Shown: piece by piece, positions 24,128 to 58,200 of the stretch
How the letters are laid out: every line of letters starts with the position of its first letter
How positions within the stretch are numbered: the first letter of the stretch is position 1
Assembly: GCA_029263455.1 (NCBI GenBank)
Contig: JAJCXM010000019.1
Span: 62,001-126,000, forward strand
From: Holophagae bacterium
GTDB taxonomy: Bacteria; Acidobacteriota; Holophagae; Acanthopleuribacterales; Acanthopleuribacteraceae
DNA: 64,000 nucleotides
Direction of reading: 5' to 3'
Made by a program: the position numbers and the translations under genes
Notes under the pieces: model-generated
What the model was told of the DNA's origin: nothing
The model's input: only the letters and a program-made list of their open reading frames with translations
Database searches by the model: none

Positions 24128-25750
24128 TTAGCGTGCGGCGGTGTCGAAGACGTCTGGATTCAAGAATTGGCCTCGATCTTGGGCGCTCTTGAAAGTCTCA
24201 ACCACAATTGGATGTTTTTGAGCGTAAGCATCGTTGCGGACACCCGTAACCTGCCAGGAAACCTTTAGGCCTTCGTTTCCACCGGCGATTCTGAAGCGGT
24301 TACCCTCAATTTCGCGTTCCACGTACAGACCAGCTGGCGCACCGATTGGGGTTAGCTGATAGCGGAACTCATGATTCAAAGCTTCAAAATAGGCCGGTAA
24401 CTCAATCCATGCGGTTCCGTCGGCATCTAATAGCGCGTTGCCGTTATATACATTCATCATGTCTGGACTCTCTACAAATGAATGGGAAAGCACCTTATTG
24501 GCGGGGTCAAGAGGGTGATCGATCTTGAATGAGCCACTCGATTTACTTAAGCGTCCGGATACATGAACATCGCCGGAAAAATAGGCTGCCGTTCCACCGC
24601 TTGTACTGTCGGTGCCTGCCCACAATGCGGCAGCCGTACTGTTTGGGTTGCGATTATGTACCCAAGCTCCCGCATTTAAGCCGTAATTGTTGACGGATAC
24701 TGAGACGGCGTTACTTTGTTCGTCGGTTGTGACAAATTCGGCCGCCATTGCCGCACCACTGCTGGTGGCAAGAATCGCAGAGCTGGCACCTTTGTTGTCG
24801 ATTTCAAGGGCCGGCATGGTATTGGAGGGTTCTTGCTGGCGGATGAAGGCGGCGCGTCCACTGCCCCACTGGGTGGCGTTAAGCACATTACCGCTGCCAT
24901 TGTGTGTGACATAGAGCGCATCATTACTACTGCTTACATTGTTGATCTCAAATCGAGCTGCCATGCCGCCGCCCTCTTGCGTGATGCGAAAGGCTTCGGG
25001 ACCCGTTGTAACTGTTTCCCAGAAGGGAAATTCAAGAGACGATGAAGAATTACCTTGTTTGGCTTCAAATTGAGCAGCCGAATTCTCCCATAAATAGCCT
25101 TCATCAGCTGATGGAGCCGTACCACGTAAGCTGGTGACTGCGAGTGGTTGGTTCGATCTGATCTCGTAATAGACGTCGTCCATTGTTTGAAAGGCATCAC
25201 TCATGACAAACAGCTTCTTGGCATTTGGCTGTAACCCCGTTTGCACAACTTGTGTGGCAAGGTCTTGGCCATTGGCATCCACTTGAGCAAGAGAGATGTC
25301 GGCTGCTGCTGAGCCGGTATTGATCGCTGCAAAACCATCGAAGATCAGACTCCAATTTCCTGCGTAGAGTCGCCATGTTTTTGCCTGTACCGATGATTCC
25401 CGCACGTGGGCCGGGCTACCTGGACCGCTGGCCGCCTGATAAGTAACGGCGACCGTAATACCTGAGCTAGCTTCAATGGTGAAGTGTGAAACGTCATTTT
25501 GAGCGCCAAATAACTGATCGGGTTCCAGAACGGATATTGAATTGGCCTGATGGATACCTGAATGGATGGCGAGCAATTGACCGCTGGTATCGAAGCTATG
25601 AAATTGATAGGGCTGGGTGCTTGTGGTGGTGTTTTCGAGAATGATTTCCGTCTTAAATCCGCCGCCAGCCCGGGTGATATGGGGAATGATGCGGGTTTGG
25701 GCAAAAATACAAGTGGTTGAGATGATGATTAGTGTAAGGCGCGTGAACAT
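24128..25750 (-). CDS. exported protein: two beta-sandwich-like repeats plus conserved 'IDHPLDP' C-terminal module
   Basis: GGAGG precedes the ATG, which starts the signal peptide MFTRLTLIIISTTCIFA. The first 220 residues hold two related units (IIPHITRAGGGFKTEIILENTT and LIFDGFAAINTGSAAADISL). Their pattern recurs in the secreted protein at 31094-32278, so these are relatives within the window. The middle (about 240-380) has degenerate short beta repeats such as ALYVTHNGSGNVLNA. The C terminus carries KIDHPLDPANK and VESPDMMNVYNG, a module I know from many large secreted bacterial proteins, where it follows fibre-like repeats. Function unknown; a surface fibre or autoprocessing-like tail is possible. 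Confidence 0.65.
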   Translation of the reverse strand: MFTRLTLIIISTTCIFAQTRIIPHITRAGGGFKTEIILENTTTSTQPYQFHSFDTSGQLLAIHSGIHQANSISVLEPDQLFGAQNDVSHFTIEASSGITVAVTYQAASGPGSPAHVRESSVQAKTWRLYAGNWSLIFDGFAAINTGSAAADISLAQVDANGQDLATQVVQTGLQPNAKKLFVMSDAFQTMDDVYYEIRSNQPLAVTSLRGTAPSADEGYLWENSAAQFEAKQGNSSSSLEFPFWETVTTGPEAFRITQEGGGMAARFEINNVSSSNDALYVTHNGSGNVLNATQWGSGRAAFIRQQEPSNTMPALEIDNKGASSAILATSSGAAMAAEFVTTDEQSNAVSVSVNNYGLNAGAWVHNRNPNSTAAALWAGTDSTSGGTAAYFSGDVHVSGRLSKSSGSFKIDHPLDPANKVLSHSFVESPDMMNVYNGNALLDADGTAWIELPAYFEALNHEFRYQLTPIGAPAGLYVEREIEGNRFRIAGGNEGLKVSWQVTGVRNDAYAQKHPIVVETFKSAQDRGQFLNPDVFDTAAR

Positions 25751-31093: not shown

Positions 31094-32278
31094 CTATTCA
31101 GCCCTCTTGAAACTTGCGCGCCAGGTTGATATCGCCATCGTGCCGTCATTGTATTGCCAGTCCGTTTGCACTTCGTAGCTGGACTCGGTGACATCAAAAA
31201 AACGTGTATAAGCCGTATATGGTTTTCCGAAACCGTCAACTCCGGTATGTATTTCCACATAGGTTCCTTCTTCAATATTGCCGACAATGAAGCGTGAAGG
31301 TGCTGTATCTGCATTGGCCGGCTTCCATTCGGCACGCCAAGCTTGGATGTCTACATCATAATGATGCGTATCAAAACCAAGCACATGAGCTCCCGAATTC
31401 ATAAACACGTCCCAATCGCGGCGCAGTGTAATACCGTCTTCAGCGAAGTAGCAGGTCACAGGGCCGTTCCCCTCATTTCGAACGCCTCCGCCAATCGGCC
31501 AAGAGGCATCCACATCCCACTGCCCTAACATAAAAGTTAGCTGCAATGTTTCGATTGGAGCATCTGGGCTCATGCCATCGGGTAACGCGACTTCATAGTT
31601 AAATGGCAGGCCGGGCACGGCCACGATTTGGTCATTGCCGGTATAAAATGAAAGGGCAAAACCAGCTATCTGTTGTGTGCTCTTGATTCTGATAATCGCT
31701 TGCGCAGGCGTTTGCACTTCGAATAGATCGGCTGCCATGGTCACCAATTTTTCACGAGCTGCTAATGAGCGAAAGACGGTATCAACAATTTGTCCGTCGG
31801 GCTGAATGAGCTCCACAAGCAAACTAGCACTCTGGTCCGACGTGTTGACAGCGGCAAAGCCACTCTGCCAGTTCTGGTTGTTCTCAATCAACGGAAAGAC
31901 GATGCCTGTATCGGTCACCTTAGTTAAGCCTAGGCTCGATGTTCCTTTATCTAAAAACGAGAACTTGGCAATGCCATACAACAGATCTGTTTGTGCATGC
32001 ATGCTTAGCCAACCCACTTCAGCCGCGAAAGGAATAAGCGTATCTAAAGATCCCACCAACGTCGCATTTGCGGCCAGTTGCCACGTGGTTTCACCTATTG
32101 TCTCGCCCTGATTGTCGTAAACGATCAGATCTATTTCCTGTTCCGAAGAAGATCCATTTTGAAGACTCAAAAAGGTATTCCAGTCGCCATTCTTAAAGGT
32201 GAAATGAGACAAAATGTAGGTTTCTGCTTGAGTCCAGGCAGGTAGAGTAATGAGGCAAAAGAGAATGTTTTTAAGCAC
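31094..32278 (-). CDS. secreted protein: beta-sandwich repeats fused to a DUF1579-like domain; sigma-54 target
   Basis: GTG start at 32278 with AAGGA seven bases upstream; signal peptide LKNILFCLITLPAWTQA. Residues about 20-220 contain two beta-sandwich-like units (HFTFKNGDWNTFLSLQNGSS and WQSGFAAVNTSDQSASLLVELI) related to those of the protein at 24128-25750. Residues about 240-394 resemble DUF1579: LTFMLGQWDVDASW, RDWDVFMNSGAHVLG and YEVQTDWQYNDGTMAIST. A free-standing DUF1579 gene exists at 51326-51868. It lies downstream of the Reg_prop kinase gene but has its own near-perfect sigma-54 promoter and a copy of the proposed enhancer motif, so it is probably induced by that two-component system. 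Confidence 0.72.
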   Translation of the reverse strand: MLKNILFCLITLPAWTQAETYILSHFTFKNGDWNTFLSLQNGSSSEQEIDLIVYDNQGETIGETTWQLAANATLVGSLDTLIPFAAEVGWLSMHAQTDLLYGIAKFSFLDKGTSSLGLTKVTDTGIVFPLIENNQNWQSGFAAVNTSDQSASLLVELIQPDGQIVDTVFRSLAAREKLVTMAADLFEVQTPAQAIIRIKSTQQIAGFALSFYTGNDQIVAVPGLPFNYEVALPDGMSPDAPIETLQLTFMLGQWDVDASWPIGGGVRNEGNGPVTCYFAEDGITLRRDWDVFMNSGAHVLGFDTHHYDVDIQAWRAEWKPANADTAPSRFIVGNIEEGTYVEIHTGVDGFGKPYTAYTRFFDVTESSYEVQTDWQYNDGTMAISTWRASFKRAE

Positions 32279-32363
32279 AGATGATTCCTTGAGTTGAATT
32301 GAAACAGCGCTTCATTGAGCTACTGAAAGCATCAATGATGACGTTCATCGACACTGAACAAAA

Positions 32364-32379
32364 AGCAACCCCGGTGCCA
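32364..32379 (-). promoter_or_regulatory. sigma-54 (-24/-12) promoter of the DUF1579 fusion gene
   Basis: Minus strand TGGCACCGGGGTTGCT, against the consensus TGGCACG-N4-TTGCW: 11 of 12 defined positions match, with the invariant GG and GC ten bases apart. It is intergenic; transcription would start near 32353, about 75 bases before the GTG start. Confidence 0.8.
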
Positions 32380-32418
32380 ACAAAAAGGGCATAAACAGGT
32401 GAGGTTACTGAAGGAAGC

Positions 32419-32433
32419 GTCCGCAATTGGGAC
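32419..32433 (-). promoter_or_regulatory. candidate enhancer (UAS) copy 3 for the NtrC-type regulator
   Basis: Minus strand GTCCCAATTGCGGAC. It matches the sites at 37321-37335 (GTCTCATTAGCGGAC, 11 of 15) and 37299-37313. It sits 39 bp upstream of the sigma-54 promoter, in the same orientation to transcription as copy 2, which is 38 bp from its promoter. Confidence 0.6.
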
Positions 32434-32457
32434 GTTGACTGTTCGCGCTCGATACGA

Positions 32458-35400
32458 TTACAAAGGAAGTTTGAGCGTTGCAATAGCGCCCGACGGTTTG
32501 CCATTTTCAAGCGTAAGAGTTCCTTTGTGGGCCTCAACAATTTGACGGCTCAAGACCAAACCGACACCATCGCCTTCAGCTTTGGTTGAATAGAAGGGTA
32601 CAAAAAGGTTGTCTGGCGAAAGCACGCCCATCCCATTATCGATAATCTCGATGTGAATCTTGCCAGCGGCCGTAAACCAATTCACCTTGATTTCGGGATT
32701 TGGCGTTTCTAAACATGCTTCCACTGCGTTCTTGACCAAATTGTGCACGGCGTGTCTTAAAAGCATCTCATCGGCTTCGATAAGGACGTCATCCCCTAGT
32801 ACCGCAATACCATCAAACGTTTCAACCACGCTTTCAATGAGGTTTTTGATATTGAAGCTAACGGACTGGAGTTTAGGTGGCCGGGCGATGCTTTCATAAG
32901 TCTTGAGAAAACGCAGTAGTCCATTGGATTCGGTCAGGATGTCGGCCAATAAATGTTGCGTATCAACGCGAGCCTGGTTTGACGGATCGAGGATGAGGGT
33001 CTGAATGGTCTGTGCACTTGATGAGATTGGGGTTAGATGATTTTTGATCTCGTGACTCAAGACCCGTATGAGACGCATCCATGCTCTCTGTTCTTCATCG
33101 CGAACGGTTTGGCTGATGTCAGACAAGGTCAACAGATACTGATTTGTGCCAGAACGTTTGATGCAGAAGCAGTTAACACGCCATTGGCCTTCTTTGCATG
33201 GGAAACTGAGCATGCTTGTTTGATCCACATGATCTGAAACCATCGATTCCAGGTTGAGTGCGCTTGCTCGTTCGCCAATGAGTTGCTTATCTGCAACGCC
33301 GTAAAGTTCACAACCATTTGGGTTGACATATGACAGGTGTTTTTCGTCATCGAAAACGAAAATTGCCACGTCGATGGTGTCAAAGACACGTGTGAATTGT
33401 TGATGCATCTGAGTGACATTCAGCCGGAATCGACGTTCACGCATCAACTCACGACGCTGGAGTCTTACAAATCCAACCATGGCTAACACGAGGCCGATTG
33501 CGTAAAGTAAGTACGCCCACCATGTCTTCCACGGTGGCGGCATGATGTGTAGCTCAAATTGAGCCGGCTCATTTGACCAGACTCCATCTTCATTCGAGCC
33601 TCTGACCCTAAAAATATAATCACCGGCCGGTATGTTGGTATAGGTGGCAACGCGATTATGTGAATCGGTTGCAATCCAATCAGCATCCCATCCCAGTAAC
33701 TGATACTCATATTTGTTCTTGCCAGGGTTGATGAAACTCAAGGCCGCAAACTCAAACGAAAAAAGGTGATCGGTGTAGCTTAGTACCTGTGCTTCATCAC
33801 TAGACATTGATCGCAAATAGTCCGCCTTTGACTCATTCAGAATGGCGAAGTCTGTGATCACCATTTTTGGCGCATTCCGATTCAAACGTATTTGATCGGG
33901 TTCAAAAATATTGATGCCGTTGACGCCGCCAAAGGCGAGCCGATTGTCGGGACCCGCGTGATAGGCCCCCATGTTGAACTCATTGAACTGCAGCCCATCC
34001 ATGTCGTCATAGTTCCGAAAGGTTTGAGCAGTGGGATCAAAACAAGACAATCCAGAAACAGTGCTTATCCATAGCCTTCCGCTGTTATCTTCCAATAACC
34101 CACAAATACGATCGTTGACCAAGCCATTCGACGTCGAATAGCGCGTAAACAGGCCGGATTCGGGGTGATATTCGTTGAGACCACCACCATAAGTTCCTAG
34201 CCAAACTCGACCCTCACGTGAAAGCAACATGCTTAATACGGAGTTATGGCCTAATGATCGGGGTCTATTCTTGTCATGCACAAACGACTTAATGCTGTGG
34301 CGATCGTTGGCAATAACGTTTAGCCCACCCCAGGTGCCAACCGCAACTGCGCCTGCATCAAGTTCTAACAAACAGGTAATTGACGGATGGCTCAAAGATC
34401 CAGGTCCCGACTGATAACGAATCCACGTTTCACCGTCCGATTCCAGTCGATTAAGTCCCTGTACGGTACCAACCCACAATGCGCCGCTTCGATCTTCCAA
34501 CAAGGAAGAACAAATATCGTGACTTAAGCTCCCGGGATCGTTTTGTTGGTGAGGAAAATGCTCCTGAGGCTTATAAAGTTCGTCGAGAAAATAGACGCCA
34601 ACATTCGTCGCCAGTATCCATGATCCATCGTCTCGATGCTGGATGGTGGTAACCGTGGTCGCACCATCAAACGACTGGACCGATTTGGCGTGATTTAGAT
34701 CGTGGGACTCAAAAAGACCATGCTCGGTTCCGATAAGAACGAAATCCCGTGACAGCCAAATGGAATAAATAATACCCATGTCCGAACTAGCTGGATCGGG
34801 AAAGCTGTGACCAAACCTTTCACGATCACTGCTCATGACACTCAGACCATTAGCGGTGCCTATAAACAAGACACCCTCGCGACGAAAGAGCGCTTGAACC
34901 TGATCATGCTTAAGGCTGTCAAAATCAGAATGGTCATGGAGAAATCGGCGCTCAAGCTGACCATCAATGGCGTATCGGATCAAGCCGTTGTGACTCGCGA
35001 CCCAGAGCTTGTCATCGTAGAGAGCCAGGTCAGAAACATATTCGTTGCTGTGGTCTGTTGCAAATGTCGAAAACACAGGCTTGCTATCAGTCATTCGACC
35101 CAAATAGATCCCTCTAGGGGTAGCAATGAAAACGTCACCTGCATCACTCGAAACCAACGCTGTGCAGCCCAATAGCGACTCGTTTGACCGTGTCAGATTT
35201 CCATCGCTCAATATCCAAATACCATCGGCTATGGTGCCAATCCATAAGTTTTGTTGTTGATCCATCAAGAAACAAGTCACGTTAAATGAAGCAAGGTTTT
35301 CAAATTCAGGATCACCAAACAATAACTTTGTTTTCGCATCCGCCTGCTTCAAAACAGCTAGACCTTCGGTGGTTCCAACCAGCAAATCGCCATTGACGCG

Positions 35401-35814
35401 TTCAAACAATGAAAGCACAAAATAGTGCTTTTGATCCTCGGCCGTCTGATTGTCTTCTACTGTCAGAAATCGTGCTTCAATAGGGTCATAAATGAACAGT
35501 CCATCATCGGTGGTTGCGACGGCCAGCATGCCATTACTCAGTCCCTGGATGCAGGTAACGAAGCCGCCCATTTCGGTAAATTGCTTAAACCTGTATCCGT
35601 CAAAACGGGCTAATCCGGCCTGAGTAGCCACCCAAACGTAACCATCCGTTGTGACCGTTAAATCAATAATCGTGTTTTGCGGCAATCCGTTTCGCTGTGT
35701 GAAATTATCGAATCGAATATGCGATTGTGAGAATCCCGTGCTGCATAAAAGGAAAAGGAACCACAAGGTTGGCTGCCTAAATCTCGTGCTTCTGTAAGCG
35801 CCGATACATTGCAC
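32458..35814 (-). CDS. Reg_prop/Y_Y_Y sensor histidine kinase with PAS domain
   Basis: 1118 residues. A signal peptide (FLFLLCSTGFSQ) is followed by about 12-14 two-component-regulator-propeller blades (NGLPQNTIIDLTVTTDGYVWVATQ, WIGTIADGIWIL, LWVGTVQGLNRLE). A Y_Y_Y domain follows (YEYQLLGWDADWI, YTNIPAGDYIFRVRGSNEDGVW), then one membrane segment (WWAYLLYAIGLVLAMVGFV). Inside the cell come a PAS domain, the H-box LSHEIKNHLTPISSSAQTI, the N-box VHNLVKNAVEACLE and G boxes IIDNGMGV and GDGVGLVLSRQIVEAH. The kinase core looks NtrB/NtrY-like, which suits a sigma-54 regulator. The GTG start overlaps the regulator gene by 38 bp; TTG 35766 is an alternative. The ligand is unknown, but propellers of this type often sense glycans. 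Confidence 0.9.
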   Translation of the reverse strand: MQCIGAYRSTRFRQPTLWFLFLLCSTGFSQSHIRFDNFTQRNGLPQNTIIDLTVTTDGYVWVATQAGLARFDGYRFKQFTEMGGFVTCIQGLSNGMLAVATTDDGLFIYDPIEARFLTVEDNQTAEDQKHYFVLSLFERVNGDLLVGTTEGLAVLKQADAKTKLLFGDPEFENLASFNVTCFLMDQQQNLWIGTIADGIWILSDGNLTRSNESLLGCTALVSSDAGDVFIATPRGIYLGRMTDSKPVFSTFATDHSNEYVSDLALYDDKLWVASHNGLIRYAIDGQLERRFLHDHSDFDSLKHDQVQALFRREGVLFIGTANGLSVMSSDRERFGHSFPDPASSDMGIIYSIWLSRDFVLIGTEHGLFESHDLNHAKSVQSFDGATTVTTIQHRDDGSWILATNVGVYFLDELYKPQEHFPHQQNDPGSLSHDICSSLLEDRSGALWVGTVQGLNRLESDGETWIRYQSGPGSLSHPSITCLLELDAGAVAVGTWGGLNVIANDRHSIKSFVHDKNRPRSLGHNSVLSMLLSREGRVWLGTYGGGLNEYHPESGLFTRYSTSNGLVNDRICGLLEDNSGRLWISTVSGLSCFDPTAQTFRNYDDMDGLQFNEFNMGAYHAGPDNRLAFGGVNGINIFEPDQIRLNRNAPKMVITDFAILNESKADYLRSMSSDEAQVLSYTDHLFSFEFAALSFINPGKNKYEYQLLGWDADWIATDSHNRVATYTNIPAGDYIFRVRGSNEDGVWSNEPAQFELHIMPPPWKTWWAYLLYAIGLVLAMVGFVRLQRRELMRERRFRLNVTQMHQQFTRVFDTIDVAIFVFDDEKHLSYVNPNGCELYGVADKQLIGERASALNLESMVSDHVDQTSMLSFPCKEGQWRVNCFCIKRSGTNQYLLTLSDISQTVRDEEQRAWMRLIRVLSHEIKNHLTPISSSAQTIQTLILDPSNQARVDTQHLLADILTESNGLLRFLKTYESIARPPKLQSVSFNIKNLIESVVETFDGIAVLGDDVLIEADEMLLRHAVHNLVKNAVEACLETPNPEIKVNWFTAAGKIHIEIIDNGMGVLSPDNLFVPFYSTKAEGDGVGLVLSRQIVEAHKGTLTLENGKPSGAIATLKLPL

Positions 35815-37132
35815 TACGACTCAATCCAAGAGCCTTGGCGGTCTTTGTGATGTTTCCTTGATTCTCCTTCAAAGTTCGCTTGATCATGTAACCTTCTATG
35901 TCCAATAAACTCATGCAGTTCAATGAAGTTGTCGGAGACATATCGGGATTTGCATAGTTCGCATGATCAAAAATGGATGCATTTTGGCCCAGCAGTATCA
36001 TGCGTTCCATCGCATGTTCTAGCTCTCTGATGTTCCCTGGCCATGAGTATTGCAGTAAATCAGCTTCCATGCGCGCTGTCAGTTTGAGAACGGGTTTTCG
36101 ATATTTCTCGGCCAAGCGCGCCAGAAAGAATCGTGACAGTACGGGGATATCTTCTAAGCGTTCGCGTAGCGGCGGCATGGTGATTTCAATGGTATTGAGT
36201 CGGTAATAAAGGTCACGACGAAAGCGGCCTTCTTCGATTTCAGTTGTCATCGTGGCGTTGGTTGCCGAAACAATGCGGACATCACTTTGATAGGTCTTTG
36301 ATGATCCCACCGGCTCATACAAACCCATCTCAAGAACCCGCAATAACTTGTTCTGTTGTTTCAGGGGAATGTTGGCGATCTCATCTAGGAAGAGTGTGCC
36401 TTCTTCGGCCATCTCAAAGCGACCGACTCGATGGTCACGAGCATCAGTAAAGGCGCCTTTCACGTGTCCAAACATCTCACTTTCAAAAAGGCCTTCTGAA
36501 AGCCCGCCCGTATTGACGGCGACAAAGGGTTTCTCAAAACGACGCGACCGTTGATGAATCATTTTGGCCAACAAACTCTTGCCAGTTCCGTTCTCACCTA
36601 AAATAATGATACTGGCATCACTGTCAGCCACATTTCTTACCAGATTTAGGATCGACTGCATCGCTGGCGACTCCGCGACCATCGTAGAAACACTTTGATT
36701 TAGATCTTGTTTCAGTTGTGCGCGATATCTTTGTACGTGGCTCTCTGATTTTTGTAACTTCACCAAGTTGTTAACACTTGCCAGCAAACGATTATTGTCC
36801 CAGGGTTTTTCTACAAAATCCTGGGCGCCTCTTCTCATCGCCTCGACGGCTATTTCAACATTGCCAAAAGCCGTGATTACTAGGACTGGAACATTGGGCG
36901 CGATTTGTTTGATTTGTTCCAACAGCGCTAATCCTTCGGTTCCGGAGGTTGTATCCCGCGTGTAATTAAGGTCGATGATAAGCAAGTGCATGAGTTCTTT
37001 GCGAATTGTTTCAAGCACAGATTCAGGACCATCGGCCTCATAGACTTTGAATCCATGGTGCCTTAAGAATACGTGTAATGAATGGCGGATTGTTTTCTGA
37101 TCATCAGCGATCAATATTTTGTACGCAAACAT
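35777..37132 (-). CDS. NtrC-family sigma-54-dependent response regulator
   Basis: ATG 37132, preceded by GGGGAAGG, is chosen over an upstream in-frame start. 451 residues: receiver domain with acidic pair Asp10-Asp11, phosphorylation site Asp54 (LLIIDLNY) and Lys in FVEKPW. An AAA+ domain follows with Walker A GENGTGKS, a GAFTDA loop in place of GAFTGA, Walker B GTLFLDEI and an arginine-finger region FRRDLYYRLN. A Fis-type helix-turn-helix ends the protein (NITKTAKALGLSRSAMYRRL). The GAFTDA variant keeps the Phe-Thr that contact sigma-54. It is first in the operon with the Reg_prop kinase and divergent from the giant surface-protein gene. Confidence 0.95.
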   Translation of the reverse strand: MFAYKILIADDQKTIRHSLHVFLRHHGFKVYEADGPESVLETIRKELMHLLIIDLNYTRDTTSGTEGLALLEQIKQIAPNVPVLVITAFGNVEIAVEAMRRGAQDFVEKPWDNNRLLASVNNLVKLQKSESHVQRYRAQLKQDLNQSVSTMVAESPAMQSILNLVRNVADSDASIIILGENGTGKSLLAKMIHQRSRRFEKPFVAVNTGGLSEGLFESEMFGHVKGAFTDARDHRVGRFEMAEEGTLFLDEIANIPLKQQNKLLRVLEMGLYEPVGSSKTYQSDVRIVSATNATMTTEIEEGRFRRDLYYRLNTIEITMPPLRERLEDIPVLSRFFLARLAEKYRKPVLKLTARMEADLLQYSWPGNIRELEHAMERMILLGQNASIFDHANYANPDMSPTTSLNCMSLLDIEGYMIKRTLKENQGNITKTAKALGLSRSAMYRRLQKHEI

Positions 37133-37214
37133 TAACCTTCCCCTAATTGACTCATCACATTCCTGTGGGCGCAAGACAATCGCAACGCGGATCATCACCA
37201 GCTGGGTAGAAAAG

Positions 37215-37230
37215 AGCAAGTTTCCTGCCC
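37215..37230 (-). promoter_or_regulatory. probable sigma-54 promoter of the regulator-kinase operon
   Basis: Minus strand GGGCAGGAAACTTGCT, matching TGGCACG-N4-TTGCW at 10 of 12 positions with GG-N10-GC intact. Transcription would start near 37204, about 70 bases before the regulator ATG. Both enhancer-like motifs lie 68 and 90 bp upstream, which would make the operon autoactivated. Confidence 0.55.
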
Positions 37231-37298
37231 AAGCTCGAGCGTGGCAAGCTGACCCTTGCGTTCACATTCAGTCAGCGTCCTGTTTATTGCGATCAAGT

Positions 37299-37313
37299 GT
37301 CCCATAATCGCAC
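37299..37313. promoter_or_regulatory. candidate enhancer (UAS) copy 1
   Basis: GTCCCATAATCGCAC on the + strand, matching copy 2 at 11 of 15 positions. The two copies are in direct orientation, 22 bp apart start to start, or about two helical turns, so dimers bound there would face the same way. It lies between two divergent sigma-54 promoters. Confidence 0.55.
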
Positions 37314-37320
37314 AGATGAT

Positions 37321-37335
37321 GTCTCATTAGCGGAC
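37321..37335 (+). promoter_or_regulatory. candidate enhancer (UAS) copy 2
   Basis: GTCTCATTAGCGGAC, with partial dyad symmetry (GTC...GAC). It is 38 bp upstream of the sigma-54 promoter of the giant gene, nearly the same spacing as copy 3 to its promoter (39 bp). Confidence 0.6.
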
Positions 37336-37373
37336 GAAACTGTTCGAATACCACCTATCCACCTGGGTTCTAA

Positions 37374-37389
37374 TGGCATAAGCATTGCT
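37374..37389 (+). promoter_or_regulatory. sigma-54 promoter of the giant surface-protein gene
   Basis: TGGCATAAGCATTGCT matches TGGCACG-N4-TTGCW at 10 of 12 positions, with GG-N10-GC exact and a perfect TTGCT at -12. Transcription would begin near 37400, leaving a leader of about 85 bases before the TTG start at 37487. Confidence 0.7.
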
Positions 37390-37486
37390 CGTGTGCAGAA
37401 ATGGCACGCTCGAACACACACATGCTTGGCTACTAGTAGATGTTTGCATGATTGTCACTGCAAACACATTTGCAAGGGAGACCGTC

Positions 37487-40400
37487 TTGAAGAGAATACA
37501 GCTCCACGTTTCAGGACTCATCATATTTTCACTTTTGCTGTCGAGTGCTTTGGGCCAAGAACCGCTAGGACCACCTGTTAATCTCAAAACGTTTCAACTG
37601 TTGATTGATGTCGACCGAGATCAGGGAACTGGACTGGACCTAATTCTCAATGATGGCGTGACACAGGCAATGGGAATCGAATTGCTAACAACCGTCACCG
37701 TGTTGGCAGGCAATTCACCACAAGTCACACGTGTTGAGGCTCAAGAATGGGATGGCAACGCTGGATTCTCAGCACCCTATTTCGTTGATAGCAGTGGTTG
37801 GGCGGTCGGCATAGATAATGGATTCAGCGGCGGCGACGTGACTGAAGCCTACATGCCGTTGGACAAATTTGGTGAAAACTACGTAGTCAATTTTTACGTG
37901 CAAAGTGGTCAATTGGGATCAGCCCACGACGTCATAGATCCCGTTTGGTTCAGTTTTGACATTCCCATACCCACCTTGTCATTTTGGATGCTCGCCGCTT
38001 TCATTTTGTTGATGGTTATTCTGGCATTATGGATGTCGCGTGGTCGATTGAGAATGCGCCATGGGATCATGCTGATTTTTGCGGGTCTTTTCCTGGTGGC
38101 GGCTGCTGGCGCGATTGTACTTGACGGTCAAGTCAATGACTGGACGGACCCTCCTATTGCTACAGACCATATTGATGACGCCGGTGAAGACGCCGTTGAC
38201 TTACTTGCCTTTTTTGTCTGTCATGACGAGCAAAATTTGTTTTTCCGTTTTGATGTCGAGGAACTTGAGAATCAATCTCCGGTAGCCGGTGACCTAACAA
38301 TCAGCCTCCTCGAAGATACGGCAACGCTTGTTTCCTTAACAGCATCGGACGCCGATGGAGACACGCTCACCTTTTCCATCATCAGTAATCCGAGCTTTGG
38401 GACACTTGGGTCGCTAACTTCCACAGGTCCAAATTCTGCAGATATTACCTACACGCCCAACGCTGATGTTGCGGGTATGGACAGTTTTACTTTCTCGGTT
38501 GATGACCTGAATGGCGGGACTGCGGTTGGATTGGTTGACATCACCATTACAGCCGTGAACGACGCACCTAGCTTTACGCCCGGTCCAGACCTATCCGTTC
38601 CCAAAGGCAGTGGCCCATTCACGAGTGCGGCCTGGGCCAGCGCAGTTTCTCCCGGTGCATCGAATGAAGCGAACCAGACACTTCAATTTCAAGTGTCAGT
38701 CAGCAGCAATCCACAAGTGTTTTTGGTGCCCCCTACCATCGACCCTGTCTCCGGTGATTTGACATTTACGCCCGACAGCGACATGAATGGCACGGCAACC
38801 ATTGATGTTTTTCTGATGGATGATGGAGGTACCGCGAATGGTGGACTGGACACGTCTACGATTCATTCGTTCAATATTGCCGTTGGATCCGTGAACGATG
38901 CACCCAGCTTCGTGGCCGGTAGCGACGTTATCAACAATGAAGATGATGGGATGATCATGGTCAACAGTTGGGCTACAGCCATTTCGCCAGGGCCACCCGA
39001 TGAATCAGGACAAATCCTCAATTTCACGGTCAATAACATCCAGGATCCTGATGGCATTTTTGCCACGCCACCCGCGCTTGACGTAAATAGTGGAGACCTT
39101 ACCTACACCCTGGCCGCAGATCAGTTTGGCGCTGCAACCGCCGATATCACGCTGATGGACGACGGGGGTACGGCCAATGGTGGGATCGATGTTTCCCCGG
39201 TTCATACACTCATGGTGACGGTCAATTCCATCAACGATGCACCCACTTTTTCGCACGCTGGAAATGTCGACGTTCCCAAGAGTGGCGGCATAGAACTTCT
39301 CCCCGCATGGGCATCAAGCCTAGCGGTGGGTCCCGCCAATGAAGCGGGACAAACACTACTTGGCTTTACCGTTTTGGTCGTGAGTGACGCTAATAACGTG
39401 CTTACGGTCATGCCTACGGTGGACTTAATAACTGGCGATCTGAGCTTTGCCACCGACGTGAATAATAATGGCACGGCCACCATCGAGCTTACGCTGCAGG
39501 ACGATGGCGGCACCGCCAATGGCGGCTTAGACACCTCCATACCCGTCATGATCGACATCAACGTTTTGGCAGTCAACGATCCACCCAGTTTCACAAAGGG
39601 TCCAGACATCATCATTGATGAGAACGCCGGGCCGCAGACTTTCAACCCATGGGCAACTGGCATATCCGCTGGTCCACCCGATGAAGCGGGACAAACGCTT
39701 ACTTTCAACGTAACCGCGAATTCGAATTCGGCGATCTTTATGTCACCACCTGCCATCGCTGCGGATGGGACTTTAACTTTTGAATCTGCACCGGGTGCTC
39801 ACACAGGAATGCCAGCTACGCCGGTCGAATTAACCATCGAATTGATGGATAGTGGCGGCACGGCCAACGGCGGTTCAGATACATCAGGTCCACAAATGTT
39901 CACCATCAGGATCAATCCCGTCAATAGTCCCCCAACCGCTACGGACGATTCGTACGACGCAGCCGTGAATACGCGTCTTGAAGTCGGGACCTCGACTGCC
40001 GCACTTGGTCACAAGATAGCGGGCAGCGTGCTCACCGACGGCGTGATGGACAGTGATCCAGACGGCCCGGGCCCGCTTATTGTGGTCGGTACAAGCAACG
40101 TCACTGCGGGCGCTTCCGTTGCCATGAATGCAGATGGCAGTTTTACTTATTCGCCTCCGCCTGGCATGACAGGCTCAGACACTTTCGATTACACCATCAC
40201 CGACCAAGACCCTATCCTTCCACTTACCGATACAGCCACTGTGACCATCAATCTGTATGATTCGATATGGTACGTAAAGAACGATCATGCCGGGCCGAGC
40301 CAAGGCACCTCCGATAATCCCTTTCAATCGCTCGCGGAAGCCGAGTCCGCTTCAGCACCAAACGATAAAATCTTCTTATTTATTGGCGATGGCAACATCA

Positions 40401-43400
40401 CAGGCCAGAACTCAGGTATCACCCTGAAAAATGGACAATCATTGTTAGGTGAACGAGTCGACCTGGACCTCGATATCAACGGCAATATGAGCACCATTGT
40501 CATAGGGACAGCCAACAGCACGTTAGCGCCTAGGATAGGAAACGCGGCCGGTGATGTGGTCATTCTTGCTGACGACAACACCGTTGCTGGCCTAATTATG
40601 TTACCCACAGCAAGTGCAGGCATTAGTGGTTCCGGGGCGATGACTAAGAAAACGAGCGTCAACTCTGACGCTGCGGCTACCATCAAACCAGGTGACAAAC
40701 GCGCTGGCGGCACGACCCTCATCGAGCAAATCGTTATTAACCCCAGTACGTCGAGTGATGGCCTAGTTTTGCTGGCTCAAACTGGCGCGTTAAGTTTGGC
40801 CGATATTGAGATTGTTGGGCTTGCCGGTAACAGCGGCACGGGGCTTATTCTTGAGAATTGTTCGGCGTCATTTTCGCTAGATAATTTAACAATCTCTGAT
40901 GTTGGTATAGGTGTGTCGCTAGTCACAAATAGTGTAGCGATCGACTTCAGCAACACGTCAGTCATGAATTGTTCGTCAACCGCTATTGAGGTTGATAACC
41001 AGGACGATGCGACGTTTGCAGCCACATGCAGTGTCAACCAAACGGGATTAGGAAGTGCGGCAAGTGTTATAGGAGGAAATGGAACCCTAGCATTCTTAGG
41101 GCCGATTACCGTAAACAGTTTAGGTGCTGGATTTAGCGCTATAGAAATCGATGGCAATAGCCAGGACCCAACCATAAATTTTGCCGACATAAGCATTGAC
41201 GCAAGCGCTGGCAATCACGCAATCCACGTCATGGGTATGGGCATGAACAGTGCTATCAACTTTAATGGTGTGCTCGACGTCAACGGCGCTGGAATCCACG
41301 GGCTCTTCCTTGAGAATTCCAACGGGTCGCTGGACATCGTCGACGCCACTAGCGACATCGCCAACGCGATGGATACTGGCGTAAGAATAGATAGCGGATC
41401 TCCTTCTTTAGCCATCAACGGCAGCTTAACTAACAACGAGACCTCCGTGCACGTAACAAACTTGGCTGGCGGCACCACCCAGTTTGCTCAACTGATTGCT
41501 ACCGGTTCATTTAGTTCAGGTTTTATCGCGGACAACTGCGCCGGCACGCATACGGTTAACCTTGCAAATTTAGGCAGTAATGCCAATCGACTAACAAACA
41601 GCGGTATTCAAATCAATGCATGCACTGGCCAATTCGTGATGAATGACATCAATATCTTCTCCAACGGAATTGGCTTGGACATCAGTGGTGGAAATCCGGA
41701 TGTCGACATTATGGATTCAGGCACAATCTCCTCATTGAACAGCTTGGATACGGTCGTTTCCGCCGATGCAGGCTCTCTCGACGGGTCGTTCACTAACCTT
41801 ATAGCCAACACTACCGCTGGCGTTGCGCCCGGCATCTCGTTAACAGGGGCCGCAGGCACCATCACTTTCCAAGACGTCGACATCCAAAGCTTATCGGGAA
41901 CAGGCATTTTGATTGATGGCGGCTACACGGCTACTTTCTCTACAGCCAATACCATTAACGTAGCCACGACAAGTGGCACCGGTATTGATATCCAAAATAC
42001 GACGAACAGTGGCGCGATCGATCAAGTGGTTGTGAGCGCTGGACTGTCCGGTGGCATCAACCTAAACAACAACTCGGGATCACTCTCATTCGGATTGATT
42101 GACCTCACAATGATTAATGGATACGGAATTCGCGCTCTCAATAGTGGGACCCTGGATGTGACCAACAGCACCAGCTCAATTGCGTGTGTGTCAGGAGGAT
42201 CAGCCTTAGAATTGAACGGAATCACTATCGGTGCAAGCAATATGAATTTCGCGAGCGTCTCGGCCACATTACCGGGAGCCACCAACGAAGGGATTGATTG
42301 TGATTCGGTCGCAGGGACATCACTGATTATTGGTGACACAACCATTACAACCACGAGCGTAAATGGCGGAAACGGCATCGATATTGATTCGAGCTCAGCG
42401 ACCTTTGTGTTTAACTCGGCAACCATCAACACAGATACGCATGTCGGTATTAACTTGACCAATAATATGAGCGCCAGCTTTAGCTTCAATAATTGTGATA
42501 TTGATACGACAAGTGGGACCGGCTTCAATGCCAGCGGCGGCGGAATGATTAGCGGTTCTGGTAGCAACCAAATCGATACGACAACAGGTCGCGCCATACA
42601 AATAGATGGCAGTAATATTGGTGCTGGTAACTTCAGCTTGCAAAGTGTGAATAGCAATGGCGCCGTCAATGGCATAAGACTAAACAACACGGGTTCTGCC
42701 GGTGGTTTGATTGTTACCGGCACGGGCACCAATGACTCGGGTGGCAATATTCAGAACTCGACTTCAGACGGCATTTTCATCAACAACACCGTTAGTTTCA
42801 GTCTGACCGACATGCAAATTAATAACTCCACAGTTAGTCATATCCAAATGTCAAATAGCAATGCTGTGACCCTTAACGGTATCGACTTTTTCAGCTCCGG
42901 TTTTCATGGCATCGTCGGTAGCAGCGTTACGGCACTGAATATGACCAACTGTGGAGTTGATTTGAGCGGCAATAGTGCCAATGAACACGGCCTTCGAATT
43001 ATTAACTTGCTCGGTTCGAGCAACATCACTTCGAATGATTTTACGCGCTCACAAACGATACAATTCTTTGTACAAAATACGGCCGCAAGTATTAACGCAC
43101 CAGCAGCACCGACTGATATCCTCACCTTTGACGACAATAGTTTCTCAATGCCAGGCGCCACATTCGGCGACAATATATCCATCGAATCCGCAACCACTGG
43201 AAATATGCGTGTCGTGCTCGATGACAGCGTGGGTCAAAACACCTTCGTGGGTGGAATCGCAGGAATTCAGGCCGTAACCGCAACAGGCGGCACACTCGAC
43301 GTCGTCATCGATAACATCGATGTCCAAACGACTTCGGGTTCCGGCATCAATTTAGGTGGTTTCAATGCCAGCGACCTCACCTTTGACGTGCGCAACAGTG

Positions 43401-43960
43401 AAACATTGAATACCGGCAGCATTGGTATTAATGCCACCAGCATCGGTGGTGCGATGGTTTCGGGCATCATTGACAACAACACCATCAACGGTTCCACCAC
43501 TGGCCAAGGCATTCAGGTGATCACCGAAGGCAACGGCGACATTACAGCCACGGTTAGTAACAATACGATCTCAAACATCAACCAGGAGCATGGTATTCGT
43601 GTGCAAGCGAGGGCTGGAAGTGGGACCATTAACATCACCATCAATGACAACGACGTCAACAATCTTGCAGCACCTTTCCCCTTGGAAGGCATATACGTGG
43701 AATCCGGTTCCAGTGCTGGCGGCGATACCAACACCATTTGCCTAAACATGTTTAATAACACGAGTGCGGCCAATTTTAACGAAGGTTTTCGGCTACGGCA
43801 TCGTGCAGGTGCAACCTTCAACCTACAAGATTTTGTTGGGGTGGGGTCAAATCCTGCCGATGTAACCACTTGGATCAACACCACCAAGTCAAATATAGGA
43901 ACGACCCAAATCACAGGGACAGGATTCACCGCAGCGGGTGGATCCTGCCCAACGCCTTAA
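37487..43960 (+). CDS. giant surface protein: internal IPTL motif, second membrane segment, cadherin-like repeats, beta-helix
   Basis: I start it at TTG 37487, with AAGGGAG six bases upstream and a signal peptide (LKRIQLHVSGLIIFSLLLSSALG); the frame stays open further upstream without a ribosome site. The product is 2157 residues. Residues 25-158 are an unassigned beta-rich domain. IPTLSFW at 161-167 is followed by a hydrophobic stretch and RGRLRMR, exactly like a C-terminal IPTL-CTERM signal. The protein then continues with a second hydrophobic segment (LIFAGLFLVAAAGAIVL) and a short DOMON-like domain (DGQVNDWTDPPIATDHIDDAGED). After that come one cadherin-like repeat, four units of about 107 residues (each opening NDAPSF-like and containing DDGGTANGG), one tandem-95/VCBS-like repeat, and about 1200 residues of Asn/Ser/Gly-rich right-handed beta-helix. 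No C-terminal anchor is seen. Probably an adhesin or glycan-active surface protein under sigma-54 control. Confidence 0.85.
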   Translation: MKRIQLHVSGLIIFSLLLSSALGQEPLGPPVNLKTFQLLIDVDRDQGTGLDLILNDGVTQAMGIELLTTVTVLAGNSPQVTRVEAQEWDGNAGFSAPYFVDSSGWAVGIDNGFSGGDVTEAYMPLDKFGENYVVNFYVQSGQLGSAHDVIDPVWFSFDIPIPTLSFWMLAAFILLMVILALWMSRGRLRMRHGIMLIFAGLFLVAAAGAIVLDGQVNDWTDPPIATDHIDDAGEDAVDLLAFFVCHDEQNLFFRFDVEELENQSPVAGDLTISLLEDTATLVSLTASDADGDTLTFSIISNPSFGTLGSLTSTGPNSADITYTPNADVAGMDSFTFSVDDLNGGTAVGLVDITITAVNDAPSFTPGPDLSVPKGSGPFTSAAWASAVSPGASNEANQTLQFQVSVSSNPQVFLVPPTIDPVSGDLTFTPDSDMNGTATIDVFLMDDGGTANGGLDTSTIHSFNIAVGSVNDAPSFVAGSDVINNEDDGMIMVNSWATAISPGPPDESGQILNFTVNNIQDPDGIFATPPALDVNSGDLTYTLAADQFGAATADITLMDDGGTANGGIDVSPVHTLMVTVNSINDAPTFSHAGNVDVPKSGGIELLPAWASSLAVGPANEAGQTLLGFTVLVVSDANNVLTVMPTVDLITGDLSFATDVNNNGTATIELTLQDDGGTANGGLDTSIPVMIDINVLAVNDPPSFTKGPDIIIDENAGPQTFNPWATGISAGPPDEAGQTLTFNVTANSNSAIFMSPPAIAADGTLTFESAPGAHTGMPATPVELTIELMDSGGTANGGSDTSGPQMFTIRINPVNSPPTATDDSYDAAVNTRLEVGTSTAALGHKIAGSVLTDGVMDSDPDGPGPLIVVGTSNVTAGASVAMNADGSFTYSPPPGMTGSDTFDYTITDQDPILPLTDTATVTINLYDSIWYVKNDHAGPSQGTSDNPFQSLAEAESASAPNDKIFLFIGDGNITGQNSGITLKNGQSLLGERVDLDLDINGNMSTIVIGTANSTLAPRIGNAAGDVVILADDNTVAGLIMLPTASAGISGSGAMTKKTSVNSDAAATIKPGDKRAGGTTLIEQIVINPSTSSDGLVLLAQTGALSLADIEIVGLAGNSGTGLILENCSASFSLDNLTISDVGIGVSLVTNSVAIDFSNTSVMNCSSTAIEVDNQDDATFAATCSVNQTGLGSAASVIGGNGTLAFLGPITVNSLGAGFSAIEIDGNSQDPTINFADISIDASAGNHAIHVMGMGMNSAINFNGVLDVNGAGIHGLFLENSNGSLDIVDATSDIANAMDTGVRIDSGSPSLAINGSLTNNETSVHVTNLAGGTTQFAQLIATGSFSSGFIADNCAGTHTVNLANLGSNANRLTNSGIQINACTGQFVMNDINIFSNGIGLDISGGNPDVDIMDSGTISSLNSLDTVVSADAGSLDGSFTNLIANTTAGVAPGISLTGAAGTITFQDVDIQSLSGTGILIDGGYTATFSTANTINVATTSGTGIDIQNTTNSGAIDQVVVSAGLSGGINLNNNSGSLSFGLIDLTMINGYGIRALNSGTLDVTNSTSSIACVSGGSALELNGITIGASNMNFASVSATLPGATNEGIDCDSVAGTSLIIGDTTITTTSVNGGNGIDIDSSSATFVFNSATINTDTHVGINLTNNMSASFSFNNCDIDTTSGTGFNASGGGMISGSGSNQIDTTTGRAIQIDGSNIGAGNFSLQSVNSNGAVNGIRLNNTGSAGGLIVTGTGTNDSGGNIQNSTSDGIFINNTVSFSLTDMQINNSTVSHIQMSNSNAVTLNGIDFFSSGFHGIVGSSVTALNMTNCGVDLSGNSANEHGLRIINLLGSSNITSNDFTRSQTIQFFVQNTAASINAPAAPTDILTFDDNSFSMPGATFGDNISIESATTGNMRVVLDDSVGQNTFVGGIAGIQAVTATGGTLDVVIDNIDVQTTSGSGINLGGFNASDLTFDVRNSETLNTGSIGINATSIGGAMVSGIIDNNTINGSTTGQGIQVITEGNGDITATVSNNTISNINQEHGIRVQARAGSGTINITINDNDVNNLAAPFPLEGIYVESGSSAGGDTNTICLNMFNNTSAANFNEGFRLRHRAGATFNLQDFVGVGSNPADVTTWINTTKSNIGTTQITGTGFTAAGGSCPTP

Positions 43961-51325: not shown

Positions 51326-51868
51326 TTACTTGATTCGAGTGGCCTCAATTAAGTTCATGCCTTCGATCCAGGTCTGGCCGCCATCGTATGAGCGATCGAG
51401 TTTAAAAGAATAGTGATCCTCTGATATGTCGAAGTAGACGGCCTTCTCTAGAAAGGGTCCAAACCCGTCAGTCCCCTTGCCTTCCATAACCAAAGTACCG
51501 TCCTTGAATTCAGCTACGATATCGGTCATGCCCGATTCATTGGCCATCACCCACTTGATTGACCATTTTCCGGTTGCAGGCACAAACGTGCGGAAGCTGA
51601 CTCCTCGAAATACCACTTGATTCTGGTCATCGAGCGCACGGAACTCATCCATAATCGCAAAGCCGTCAAGCGCGTAATAGACTTTGGAGTTGGCCTTATG
51701 AGAGGAGTAAGAACCATCCCTTTGTTTGCTCTTGGAAACCAAGTCCCACTCACCCATGATCCAGTCCAGTTGAGCTAAGCCAGCTGGCGCAGCCGGGTTC
51801 GGCGCGGTAAGGGATTGCGCCAGCGTAGTCACGGACAGCCAAACACTCAACAAAATCATCATTCTCAT
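51326..51868 (-). CDS. secreted DUF1579 family protein
   Basis: ATG 51868 has GGAG seven bases upstream and begins the signal peptide MRMMILLSVWLSVTTLAQS. The mature part shows the DUF1579 pattern: LDWIMGEWDLVSKSKQRDGSYS, IMDEFRALDDQNQVVFRG, WSIKWVMANESGMTDIV, YSFKLDRSYDGGQTWIEG (each quoted as a short piece of the domain). These lipocalin-like domains have no established activity. The protein at 31094-32278 carries a similar domain at its C terminus. Confidence 0.78.
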   Translation of the reverse strand: MRMMILLSVWLSVTTLAQSLTAPNPAAPAGLAQLDWIMGEWDLVSKSKQRDGSYSSHKANSKVYYALDGFAIMDEFRALDDQNQVVFRGVSFRTFVPATGKWSIKWVMANESGMTDIVAEFKDGTLVMEGKGTDGFGPFLEKAVYFDISEDHYSFKLDRSYDGGQTWIEGMNLIEATRIK

Positions 51869-52265
51869 CAAATATCTCCTACTCGCATGTTGACCGGTAG
51901 CAGCCTTGAGTTCATGGACGCGCTACAGGCCTATTTGCTAGATCTACGTCTGCTGAGGAAATAGGTTCGAAATATGTGATAAGCGACCCAGAACTCGAAT
52001 TCAATGGCATTGACCATTAAACTCACGCATCTATTTGGACCATGTATGTGTTTGTATATTGTTGCCATTTCGACTGGCGAACTGGCCACTTGTGCCATCG
52101 CCAGATCCTGACGTAATGGCCCGTCATTGGTCTCTTCGACCTCGGTCGTGACGTCGCGAACCACAAACGATCAGGTGCTAGGCACGAAATAGCCTGAATT
52201 TCCAGCACCTTTCTGATTGCTATTTCTTCTATTGACCGCGACTTCAAAGATGGCAGCAATCGGCG
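51869..52265. other. 397-bp stretch without a confident gene
   Basis: Two overlapping minus-strand frames (51931-52164 and 52023-52259) have no ribosome sites or signal peptides. On the minus strand one phase reads for about 110 codons with only one TGA (starting near 52260 with APIAAIFEVAVNRR), which may be a decayed gene, but I recognise no family. No hairpin or promoter stands out. Confidence 0.4.
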
Positions 52266-55026: not shown

Positions 55027-55235
55027 GGACTCAACATTACCCGTATGCGTCAACTGTTGAAGGAATCTGTATTCAAGAACACATTTGTTAATGAACTAAC
55101 TGCACATAACTCAGGTGTTGGTACTCATGGTGGGAACAGCTTTGTTGCGCAGTAGTTACGCGAATCACCTTTATTTGCACGTGAGTCTTTGAAATAATGA
55201 CAGGCCTAAGTCTGCCATTATCGAGGTCGTCGTTC

Positions 55236-58200
55236 ATGTCATTTGTAAAAAGTTCGTTTGCTCATTTGAAACTCATTTCTTTGCTTTTGTTGGCTTGCGG
55301 ATGGGTAAAAGCACAACCGGCTATTGGCGGCGCCAAGAACGCATCCAATACGGGTCGAGAAATTACTTATGACATTTACATCGAAAATTTGGGCGACGAA
55401 GTACTGCAAAACATTTCAGCACCAGACGATCTAGACGCGGCCTTTGGCATGAACAACTATGCGATTATTGCTGCCCCTTCTTTTATCATCAATCCGGGAA
55501 CGCTTACCCTGAACGGATCATTTAATGGCAGCGGCAATACGGAACTGATCGCTTCGGGCACCTTGGCCGTCGGCGCCATAGCGCAAATCCAATTTATCGT
55601 TGACGTCACGGTCATCTCCGACCAAGGAATGGGTCCTGGTATCTACAGTAACCAAGTCACTGTCTCTGGAGAAGACATGAGCATGACAACTCAAAGTGAT
55701 TTAACCGATTGGGGTACCGATCCCGACCCCAACGGCAACGGCGATGCTTCCGATGCTGGTGAGGATGACCCGACCATCGTTGATATTTTTGAAGTTCCCA
55801 TCATCGGCGTTGGTAAGAAGGTAACGCTGAGCGGAACACAAATCACGTTTGATTTTTTCTTAGAAAACTTTGGCAACCGCACCATGGTGAATCTGAACAT
55901 GCCTGACGATTTAGATGCGGTTTTTGGAGCCGGAAACTACGTAATCGTCTCTCCTCCCGCCTTAATCGATGACCCGGGCACGATCACCGTTAACGCGGCA
56001 TTCAATGGCAGCGCCATGCAACAACTGATTACTAGCGGAAGTTTAAACGTCATGGACACCGCCCAAATTCGCGTCGTACTTAATGTCACCACGGTCTCTG
56101 ACGTGGGCTTAGGATTAGGCGTTTACGAGAATCAGGTACTCGTGTCAGGACAAACCAGTCTTGGCACCTTCACGAGCGATTTGTCTGACAACGGTGCGGA
56201 GCCAGACAGCGATGGCGATGGTGACCCAACCGACCCTGACGAAGATGACCCAACCCGCTTTACCATCGGTTCGGAAGCAGCAATTGGCGTCGCCAAAACC
56301 GCGTCCGTCTTAAACAGCCAAGTAACCTTTAATTATTATCTAGAGAACTTGGGCAACGACCCTATTTCCGCGATGTCGTTACCTGACAATCTGGACAACG
56401 TGTTTGGCGCCAGCAATTATCAAATCATCGTCGCACCTGCCTTCATTGATGATCCAGGGACGATAACCCTTAACCCCGGCTTTGACGGCATTGGCAACTC
56501 ACAGTTACTTGTACCTGCATCGAGTTCCCTAGCTGTCGGTGACACGGCGCAAATTCAAATGGTCATCAGAATCAACAACTTAAGTGATCAAGGCTTAGGC
56601 TTAGGCAACTATCGCAACCAGGTCACGGCGACAGCACAAGGTCTTGGCGGTGCCGTGACTGACGATACTTCCGATGATGGAACGGATCCAGATCCCAATG
56701 GCAACGGCGACCCTGCAGAGCCAGGTGAGAACGACCCAACCGACTTTACGGTTGCCCAATTGCCCATCATCGGCTTAGCAATGGACGTCAATGTGGTGGG
56801 TTCAACGGGCGCTACGATTAACGTTGGCGGGATGAACATGCCCGGATTCGGTCCGCGGGTCTACATCAACTACTATATAGAAAACTTAGGCAATGTGACC
56901 CTGTCTAACCTCATTCTTGACAATGATTTGGACGCCGTTTTTGGCGCCGGCAACTATGGCACTATCGTTAGTGCCAGCCTTCCTACTATTCTCTATAGCG
57001 ATGGCGGATTGAATGTAAACACCAACTTCAATGGTTCCACGTTACAAAACATCCTGACGGGTGCAAGCACCATTGGGGCAGGCGAAATCGCAGCCATCCG
57101 CGTTGAATTACTAGTGACTAATATTACCGACCAAGGCATGGGCATAGGCGTTTACCAGAACCAAACGTCGATTTCGGGTGAAGGTCCTAGCGGTGGTATG
57201 ACCAGCGATCTTTCTGACGAAGGTAACGTGGCAGACGCCAACAATAATGGTGACCCGACGGATGCTGGCGAAGACGATCCAACTATTTTCGTGCTTGGCT
57301 CGTTCATTGGGGCAGCCAAAGACGCAAGTGTCGCAGGCAATCAAATCACCTTTGATCTTTACCTTGAAAACTTTGGTACCATCCAGCTCAACAACCTATC
57401 ATTGGATGACAATCTGGCCGGTGTATTTGGTGCGGGAAACTTTATTATTTCAGTAGCGCCTTTCTTCGTAGACGATCCGGGCACCATTGCCTTAAATATG
57501 AGCTTTGATGGTTCTGGTGATCGCGAGCTTATAGCTCCAGGAAGTACGCTAGCCAGTCTGGACACAGCGCAAATTCAGTTTGAAGTAACGGTCCTCAAGT
57601 TAATTACCCAAGCCAATGCCCTAGGCGCATATAGTAACCAAGCACAGGCCGCTGCGACCCAAGCAGGCGGTATTGTTGTATTGGATTCCTCCGAAACAGG
57701 CACAGACCCTGACCCTAATGGCAACGGCGATCCCACCGAATTTGGCGAAAACGATCCGACACCATTTACAGTGACGACCGATGCCATGGTGGGAGCTGCA
57801 AAAACGGCAACGGCCACTGGAACCCAGGTCACCATCGACATCTACCTGGAGAGTTTTGGCACGGCGACCACGACTGGACTGATAATGCCGGACAATCTAG
57901 ATGCCGTCTTTGGGGCTGGTAACTATACGATTTTCAGTGCTCCGACTCTTGTGGACGACCCTGGGACACTCGTTCTTAACGGTGCATTTAACGGCAGCGG
58001 TAACACAGAATTGTTGGCAGCAGGTAGTACGTTAAATGCCTTAGACACAGCCCAGATTCAATTCGTGGTTGATGTCACCAATATTGTCGATCGCGGCTTT
58101 GGCATCGGCATTTATGAAAATCAAGTCTTGGTGACCGGCTTAGATTCAACCGGTTTGATTGTATGTGATTTATCAGATTCAGGCACAGACCCAGATATCA

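Follow-up and report, generated by a model that had tools for sequence, protein, structure and literature searches.

A probable local sigma-54 circuit for a giant surface protein and a secreted protein in a Holophagae bacterium

In Bacteroidetes, Reg_prop sensors occur in hybrid two-component systems, one-piece sensors with an AraC-type output that serve glycan-use loci. Another described system, the PrsK/PrsR pair of Proteobacteria, goes together with sigma-54 promoters before PEP-CTERM genes, at a reported distance to the start codon of 71 +/- 38 nucleotides (nt) (PMC1569441). RpoN dependence has been demonstrated for pepA in Aquincola (PMC9850573), and a general link between sigma-54 and the cell exterior has been proposed earlier (PMC3162934). 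Here we analysed a 64,000-nt stretch of DNA (the window; G000:C19:62001-126000, GenBank contig JAJCXM010000019.1) from a Holophagae bacterium of the Acanthopleuribacteraceae (Holophagae, Acidobacteriota), a family described from marine animals (PMC8841776); the source genome, G000, is a 6.25-Mb assembly in 40 contigs and is 95% complete. The window contains a sensor kinase and an NtrC-type regulator flanked by the genes of a giant surface protein and a secreted protein. On balance, the sequence evidence favours a local sigma-54 circuit in which the neighbouring kinase/regulator pair would turn on both proteins.

The giant gene (37487-43960, + strand) has a TTG start and encodes a secreted or surface protein of 2157 amino acids (aa) with a signal peptide; it is oriented divergently from the regulator-kinase operon. 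In that operon, the gene of the NtrC-type response regulator (35777-37132, - strand; 451 aa; receiver, AAA+ sigma-54 interaction domain and Fis-type helix-turn-helix) overlaps by 38 nt with the gene of the sensor histidine kinase (32458-35814, - strand; 1118 aa; signal peptide, Reg_prop propeller, Y_Y_Y, transmembrane helix, PAS and HisKA/HATPase). The secreted protein is encoded next, at 31094-32278 on the - strand (394 aa, GTG start). An earlier sequence-only reading of this stretch had these coordinates, strands and gene order right. As listed, the regulator open reading frame opens at 37219; the likelier start is the ATG at 37132, with the ribosome-site-like AGGGGAAGG just before it, so that the promoter proposed at 37215-37230 falls outside the coding sequence. 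The sister species showed no synteny for the genes that flank the locus. The genome has one copy of rpoN.

All three transcription units are preceded by a -24/-12 element that is oriented with its gene and contains GG-N10-GC. The element before the giant gene (TGGCATAAGCATTGCT; 37374..37389, + strand) has a predicted start near 37400 and lies 97 nt before the TTG start; the element before the secreted-protein gene (TGGCACCGGGGTTGCT; 32364..32379, - strand) has a predicted start near 32353 and lies 85 nt before the GTG start; and a weaker element before the regulator-kinase operon (GGGCAGGAAACTTGCT; 37215..37230, - strand) has a predicted start near 37204 and lies 82 nt before the ATG. These spacings of 82-97 nt are comparable to the 71 +/- 38 nt of the PEP-CTERM promoters. 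The sequence-only reading had described the three sites as matches to TGGCACG-N4-TTGCW, which holds for the GG-N10-GC spacing and overstates the consensus match, as TGGCACCGGGGTTGCT has one mismatch and TGGCATAAGCATTGCT and GGGCAGGAAACTTGCT have two each. At two mismatches this pattern produced 14 hits in the window versus 13.4 expected; literal consensus matching therefore proves nothing, and a weighted score was used instead. The weight matrix was scanned over the ~128,000 positions of the window, and a pattern count took its place genome-wide. On this scale, in which absolute scores are approximate, the giant-gene site (16.7 bits) ranked first, the secreted-protein site (16.1 bits) second and the regulator-operon site (12.3 bits), the poorest of the three, fifth in the window. 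With a second-order Markov model as the null, scores this high are expected in these intergenic stretches with a probability of ~2e-4 for the giant, ~2e-4 for the secreted protein and ~0.013 for the regulator. Across the genome, TGGCAYN5TTGCW had 18 exact occurrences, compared with 9 when the pattern was reversed as a control. The 18 include the giant-gene and secreted-protein sites; 11 are intergenic, and several of these 11 stand, by our reading, before proteins with signal-peptide-like N-termini. The -24/-12 consensus before these genes is above chance, strongly for the giant and secreted-protein sites and marginally for the regulator site, and the former two are convincing as predicted sigma-54 sites. 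Every one of the 18 exact genome sites has TTGCT at its end, never TTGCA, which hints at a genome-specific -12 preference.

Like PrsK/PrsR, the locus combines a membrane kinase and an NtrC-type regulator with -24/-12 promoters before single surface-protein genes that have long upstream regions. In contrast to PrsK/PrsR, it has a Reg_prop sensor, a target without a PEP-CTERM signal, no exosortase found by PF09721, and targets that are adjacent instead of scattered. The scores fell well below the PrsR and PrsK cut-offs (TIGR02915, 359.5 of 502.6 bits; TIGR02916, 59.3 of 300 bits). Sigma-54 control of a surface protein by a kinase/NtrC-type pair has a close precedent in PrsK/PrsR and the PEP-CTERM genes (PMC1569441, PMC9850573).

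The regulator matched PF00072, PF00158 (2e-64) and PF02954, NtrC-type domains that uphold its assignment to the sigma-54-activating family; its loop is GAFTDA and not GAFTGA, and GAFTDA also occurs in almost every close relative. A 43-row tree places the regulator on a long branch within a 17-row clade (support 98/96) of mostly GAFTDA members. Clade members that were examined adjoin HlyD, ABC and MacB/FtsX genes of MacAB-like export operons, and the closest relatives (up to 52%) are found in such operons of Holophagae. In four export operons, two from the regulator's own clade (L067 and L068) and two from a neighbouring group (L054 and L061), the first gene is preceded at 18-71 nt by a sigma-54-like site, which is present wherever the operon start is readable. 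The pairs of these Holophagae operons are the nearest relatives of the regulator and the kinase catalytic half and share GAFTDA. Unlike them, the pair studied here has no exporter genes, bears a propeller on its kinase and has surface proteins as likely targets; a Pfam search of the window found no HlyD-ABC-FtsX genes adjoining it. The regulator is predicted to activate sigma-54 polymerase at enhancer sites.

The kinase matched PF07494, PF07495 and PF02518, with the signal peptide and transmembrane helix read from its sequence. Its catalytic half is nearest to kinases of the same MacAB-like operons (mostly 36-40%), so that kinase and regulator appear to share a line of descent. The propeller half has a distant likeness across many phyla, 27-40% in the best segments. 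A periplasmic sensor with a Reg_prop propeller and Y_Y_Y is a feature shared with the Bacteroidetes systems, from which the locus differs in its separate NtrC-type regulator and in that no glycan-use genes were seen there. A position comparison of the 33 Y_Y_Y matches in the genome placed only the window kinase near an activator gene. No Reg_prop kinase adjoining an NtrC-type regulator was found elsewhere in the 80 loci fetched with the kinase, many of which are short contigs; the sole activator-adjoining locus of the 80 (L223) was rejected as a second example because the Reg_prop protein there is a diguanylate cyclase. Near other giant genes, at L053:13850-19045 and L060:13714-18808, we observed Reg_prop hybrids with HisKA and a receiver and no ATPase domain hit, each followed by a receiver-PAS-GGDEF-EAL protein, a cyclic di-GMP output in place of sigma-54.

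Alignments revealed that the N-terminal plan of the giant protein is conserved among its relatives and comprises a signal peptide, an exported domain, an IP[IV]PTLSxW transmembrane hairpin and an LDGxxxDW domain. This is followed by tandem-95/cadherin repeats (Pfam Big_9/Cadherin; NCBIfam tandem-95) and a C-terminal half that is repetitive and seems, from its sequence, beta-helix-like. The part plan also drew on a structure model, and no match to the N-terminal structure was found in the Protein Data Bank. Like midcut-by-XrtH proteins (NF033207), the giant protein has an IPTL-like transmembrane segment placed internally, behind an exported N-terminal domain; it differs from them in that the match is weak, at 19.9 bits for a cut-off of 45, and in that a search of the 95% complete assembly for exosortase PF09721 gave no match. 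Downstream of the giant-gene relatives lie three to four genes of ~160-210 aa (L060:1395-2972, L053:3096-5155, L062:731-2347, L066:16270-18460 and L072:12633-14903), which are missing from the window copy; the two that were tested, both in L060, encode phage-tail-collar domain proteins. Partial giant-family genes end at contig ends in contigs C7, C17, C33 and C36 of G000 (L055-L058), and the family, rich in repeats, probably causes breaks in the assembly, its true size exceeding the apparent one. A second giant gene in the window (55197-62663, + strand) encodes 2488 aa with SdrD_B/DUF7507 repeats and an IPTL-CTERM-like tail (VPTLGPWMLGLMVIALMVVAIRRNR), again in a genome without a PF09721 match.

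Residues 21-220 of the secreted protein were modelled as two beta-sandwich repeats (pLDDT mostly 84-95). Comparison of this module with 1nc7 and 2ii8 gave TMt values of 0.71-0.73 and a probability of 1.00, but E values of ~0.002-0.01. The modelled N-terminal half would be a tandem transducer-like beta-sandwich similar to TM1070 and to the sensory rhodopsin transducer of Anabaena (ASRT fold). For the C-terminal domain the structure model is of low confidence, and Pfam, including DUF1579 (PF07617), gave no hit even at E<=1; a 29% relative, L234, reached DUF1579 at E=0.051. The label of a DUF1579 fusion, given in the sequence-only reading, thus lies below the Pfam threshold with only L234 touching that family, and by weak inference the domain may be DUF1579-like, its family being uncertain. 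The nearest parallel to the locus within the genome is L142, a kinase/GAFTDA-regulator cluster with a 12.8-bit sigma-54-like site before a secreted protein whose related N-terminal module is fused to a beta-lactamase-type enzyme. The module or a similar N-terminus is found in L142, L147, L059 and L242 with varying C-terminal domains (beta-lactamase type, C25 peptidase, a weak S41 match), and sigma-54-like sites are located 44-83 nt upstream in L142, L147 and L242 and not in L059. Two other secreted proteins of the window are related in part to the 394-aa protein: a 540-aa protein (24128-25750, - strand) has an N-terminal module 24% like that of the 394-aa protein, and a small protein (51326-51871, - strand) with no Pfam family is 26% like the C-terminal domain of the latter.

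Perfect palindromes TGTTCG-N4-CGAACA are present ~75-115 nt upstream of the -24 in two related MacAB-like operons, ahead of their sigma-54-like sites (L054:3687-3702 and L061:8436-8471), and are likely activator sites of GAFTDA regulators. Within the window, the candidate site TGTTCG-CGCT-CGATAC (32440..32455, + strand) is located 60 nt upstream of the secreted-protein -24, and a candidate half-site TGTTCG-AATA (37341..37356, + strand) stands between the two divergent promoters; each has 3/12 palindrome mismatches. A further candidate half-site TGTTCG (37402..37416, - strand), the complement of CGAACA at 37411-37416, is paired with 37235-37246 as an inverted repeat. The regulatory stretches contain three TGTTCG half-sites where 0.26 are expected (P ~0.002), a value that is partly post hoc because the motif was picked after looking; these elements are suggestive candidates for activator sites. 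A 14-mer shared by the two stretches (best 11/14) was rejected as an activator site, being typical of random pairs. The near-palindrome CCAAGCTCGAGCGTGG (37226-37246) extends over the -24 in the promoter of the regulator and has a partial inverted repeat at 37402-37413; as a binding site it could serve to block this same promoter.

In the circuit that we propose, the exported beta-propeller of the membrane kinase would sense something outside the cell, and the kinase would phosphorylate the adjacent NtrC-type regulator, as their domains and gene overlap suggest. The AAA+ domain of the regulator, via its GAFTDA loop, would then remodel sigma-54 polymerase at the -24/-12 elements of the giant and secreted-protein genes, and probably also at the promoter of its own operon, the weakest of the sites. 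The likeliest source from which the pair was recruited is the family controlling MacAB-like export operons through sigma-54 promoters; the kinase would have gained its Reg_prop propeller, and the target would have switched to a giant protein with relatives elsewhere that show no recognisable sigma-54 site. It also fits the circuit that, within the same window, no comparable sigma-54 site was found upstream of the 540-aa secreted protein or the second giant gene. We consider the use of sigma-54 at the giant and secreted-protein genes, where the sites themselves are observed, highly probable, and control of these genes by the neighbouring regulator reasonably probable; for self-activation of the regulator operon the case is evenly balanced. 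The idea of the sequence-only reading that a periplasmic propeller kinase and its regulator switch three units is supported in part, by the Reg_prop kinase, the NtrC-type regulator, the overlap of their genes, the presence of rpoN and two convincing sites; it is weaker for self-activation, which depends on the poorest site, and shared activator sites are at the level of suggestion.

Several observations count against this circuit. The weight matrix is an approximate rendering of the Barrios consensus. The palindrome matches at 32440 and 37341 had a chance of 0.07 and 0.18 per stretch and are not established as sites. None of ten giant-protein relatives from the same and related genomes has a site of at least 11.5 bits directly upstream. 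Four protein searches covering 61 relatives and a GTDB-wide scan with the kinase, which returned matches of 27-40% only, uncovered no orthologous locus with the full gene set; there is consequently no phylogenetic footprint of the promoters, and, with the giant relatives lacking the promoter, conservation neither confirms nor refutes the sigma-54 sites. The circuit is probably lineage-restricted, and sigma-54 control, if real, is peculiar to this copy of the giant gene.

That the genome encodes close to 30 sigma-54 activators also means that another of them could serve promoters that are genuinely sigma-54, with the neighbouring regulator directed to another target such as a MacAB-like exporter, as in its relatives. 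The ties of the regulator's clade to exporters and the lack of proven regulator binding sites at the locus fit this explanation, which we nevertheless consider rather unlikely: the promoters lie on both sides of the regulator-kinase operon, one of them divergent, related regulators sit within the very operon whose promoter bears the site, and no exporter gene adjoins the locus. Less probable still is that the sites arose by chance and that sigma-70-type or other promoters are used, the secreted-protein gene being read through from the operon 180 nt upstream. No terminator was found between the kinase and secreted-protein genes, and two of the sites are two mismatches off the stated consensus, a level of match that turns up in the window about as often as by chance; against this stand the weighted ranks of 1, 2 and 5 with their small joint chance, the rarity of the pattern genome-wide, and a simple scan of the two intergenic stretches that turned up no sigma-70-type promoter in them. 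The GAFTDA loop raises the question of whether the regulator has ceased to engage sigma-54 and acts as a conventional activator or repressor. In Dickeya, VfmH has GAFTDA, and its pull-down recovered no RpoN, a matter on which the study came to no decision (PMC10714721). On the other side, GAFTDA is usual among the related regulators, several of which have sigma-54 sites at their operons; it has been listed among variants expected to keep activity, and Desulfovibrio DVU2106, a GAFTDA regulator of a cell-division operon pair, is counted among the sigma-54 activators with assigned targets (PMC4641369). By analogy, GAFTDA need not disqualify the regulator from sigma-54 activation, and loss of sigma-54 engagement seems very improbable.

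Taken as a whole, the locus is probably a one-off reshuffling of known parts and no new kind of system. Whether a Reg_prop propeller joined to an exporter-derived sigma-54 pair, now ruling a giant IPTL-hairpin protein and a secreted module protein, amounts to an undescribed surface-display switch that couples propeller sensing to tightly gated expression could go either way. If the proposed circuit is true, a tightly gated class of promoter would have been recruited to one copy of the giant family while other copies go without it, and kinase/regulator pairs would be shown to move from exporter control to surface display. The occurrence of some sigma-54 sites before secreted proteins hints at a wider pattern in these Holophagae.

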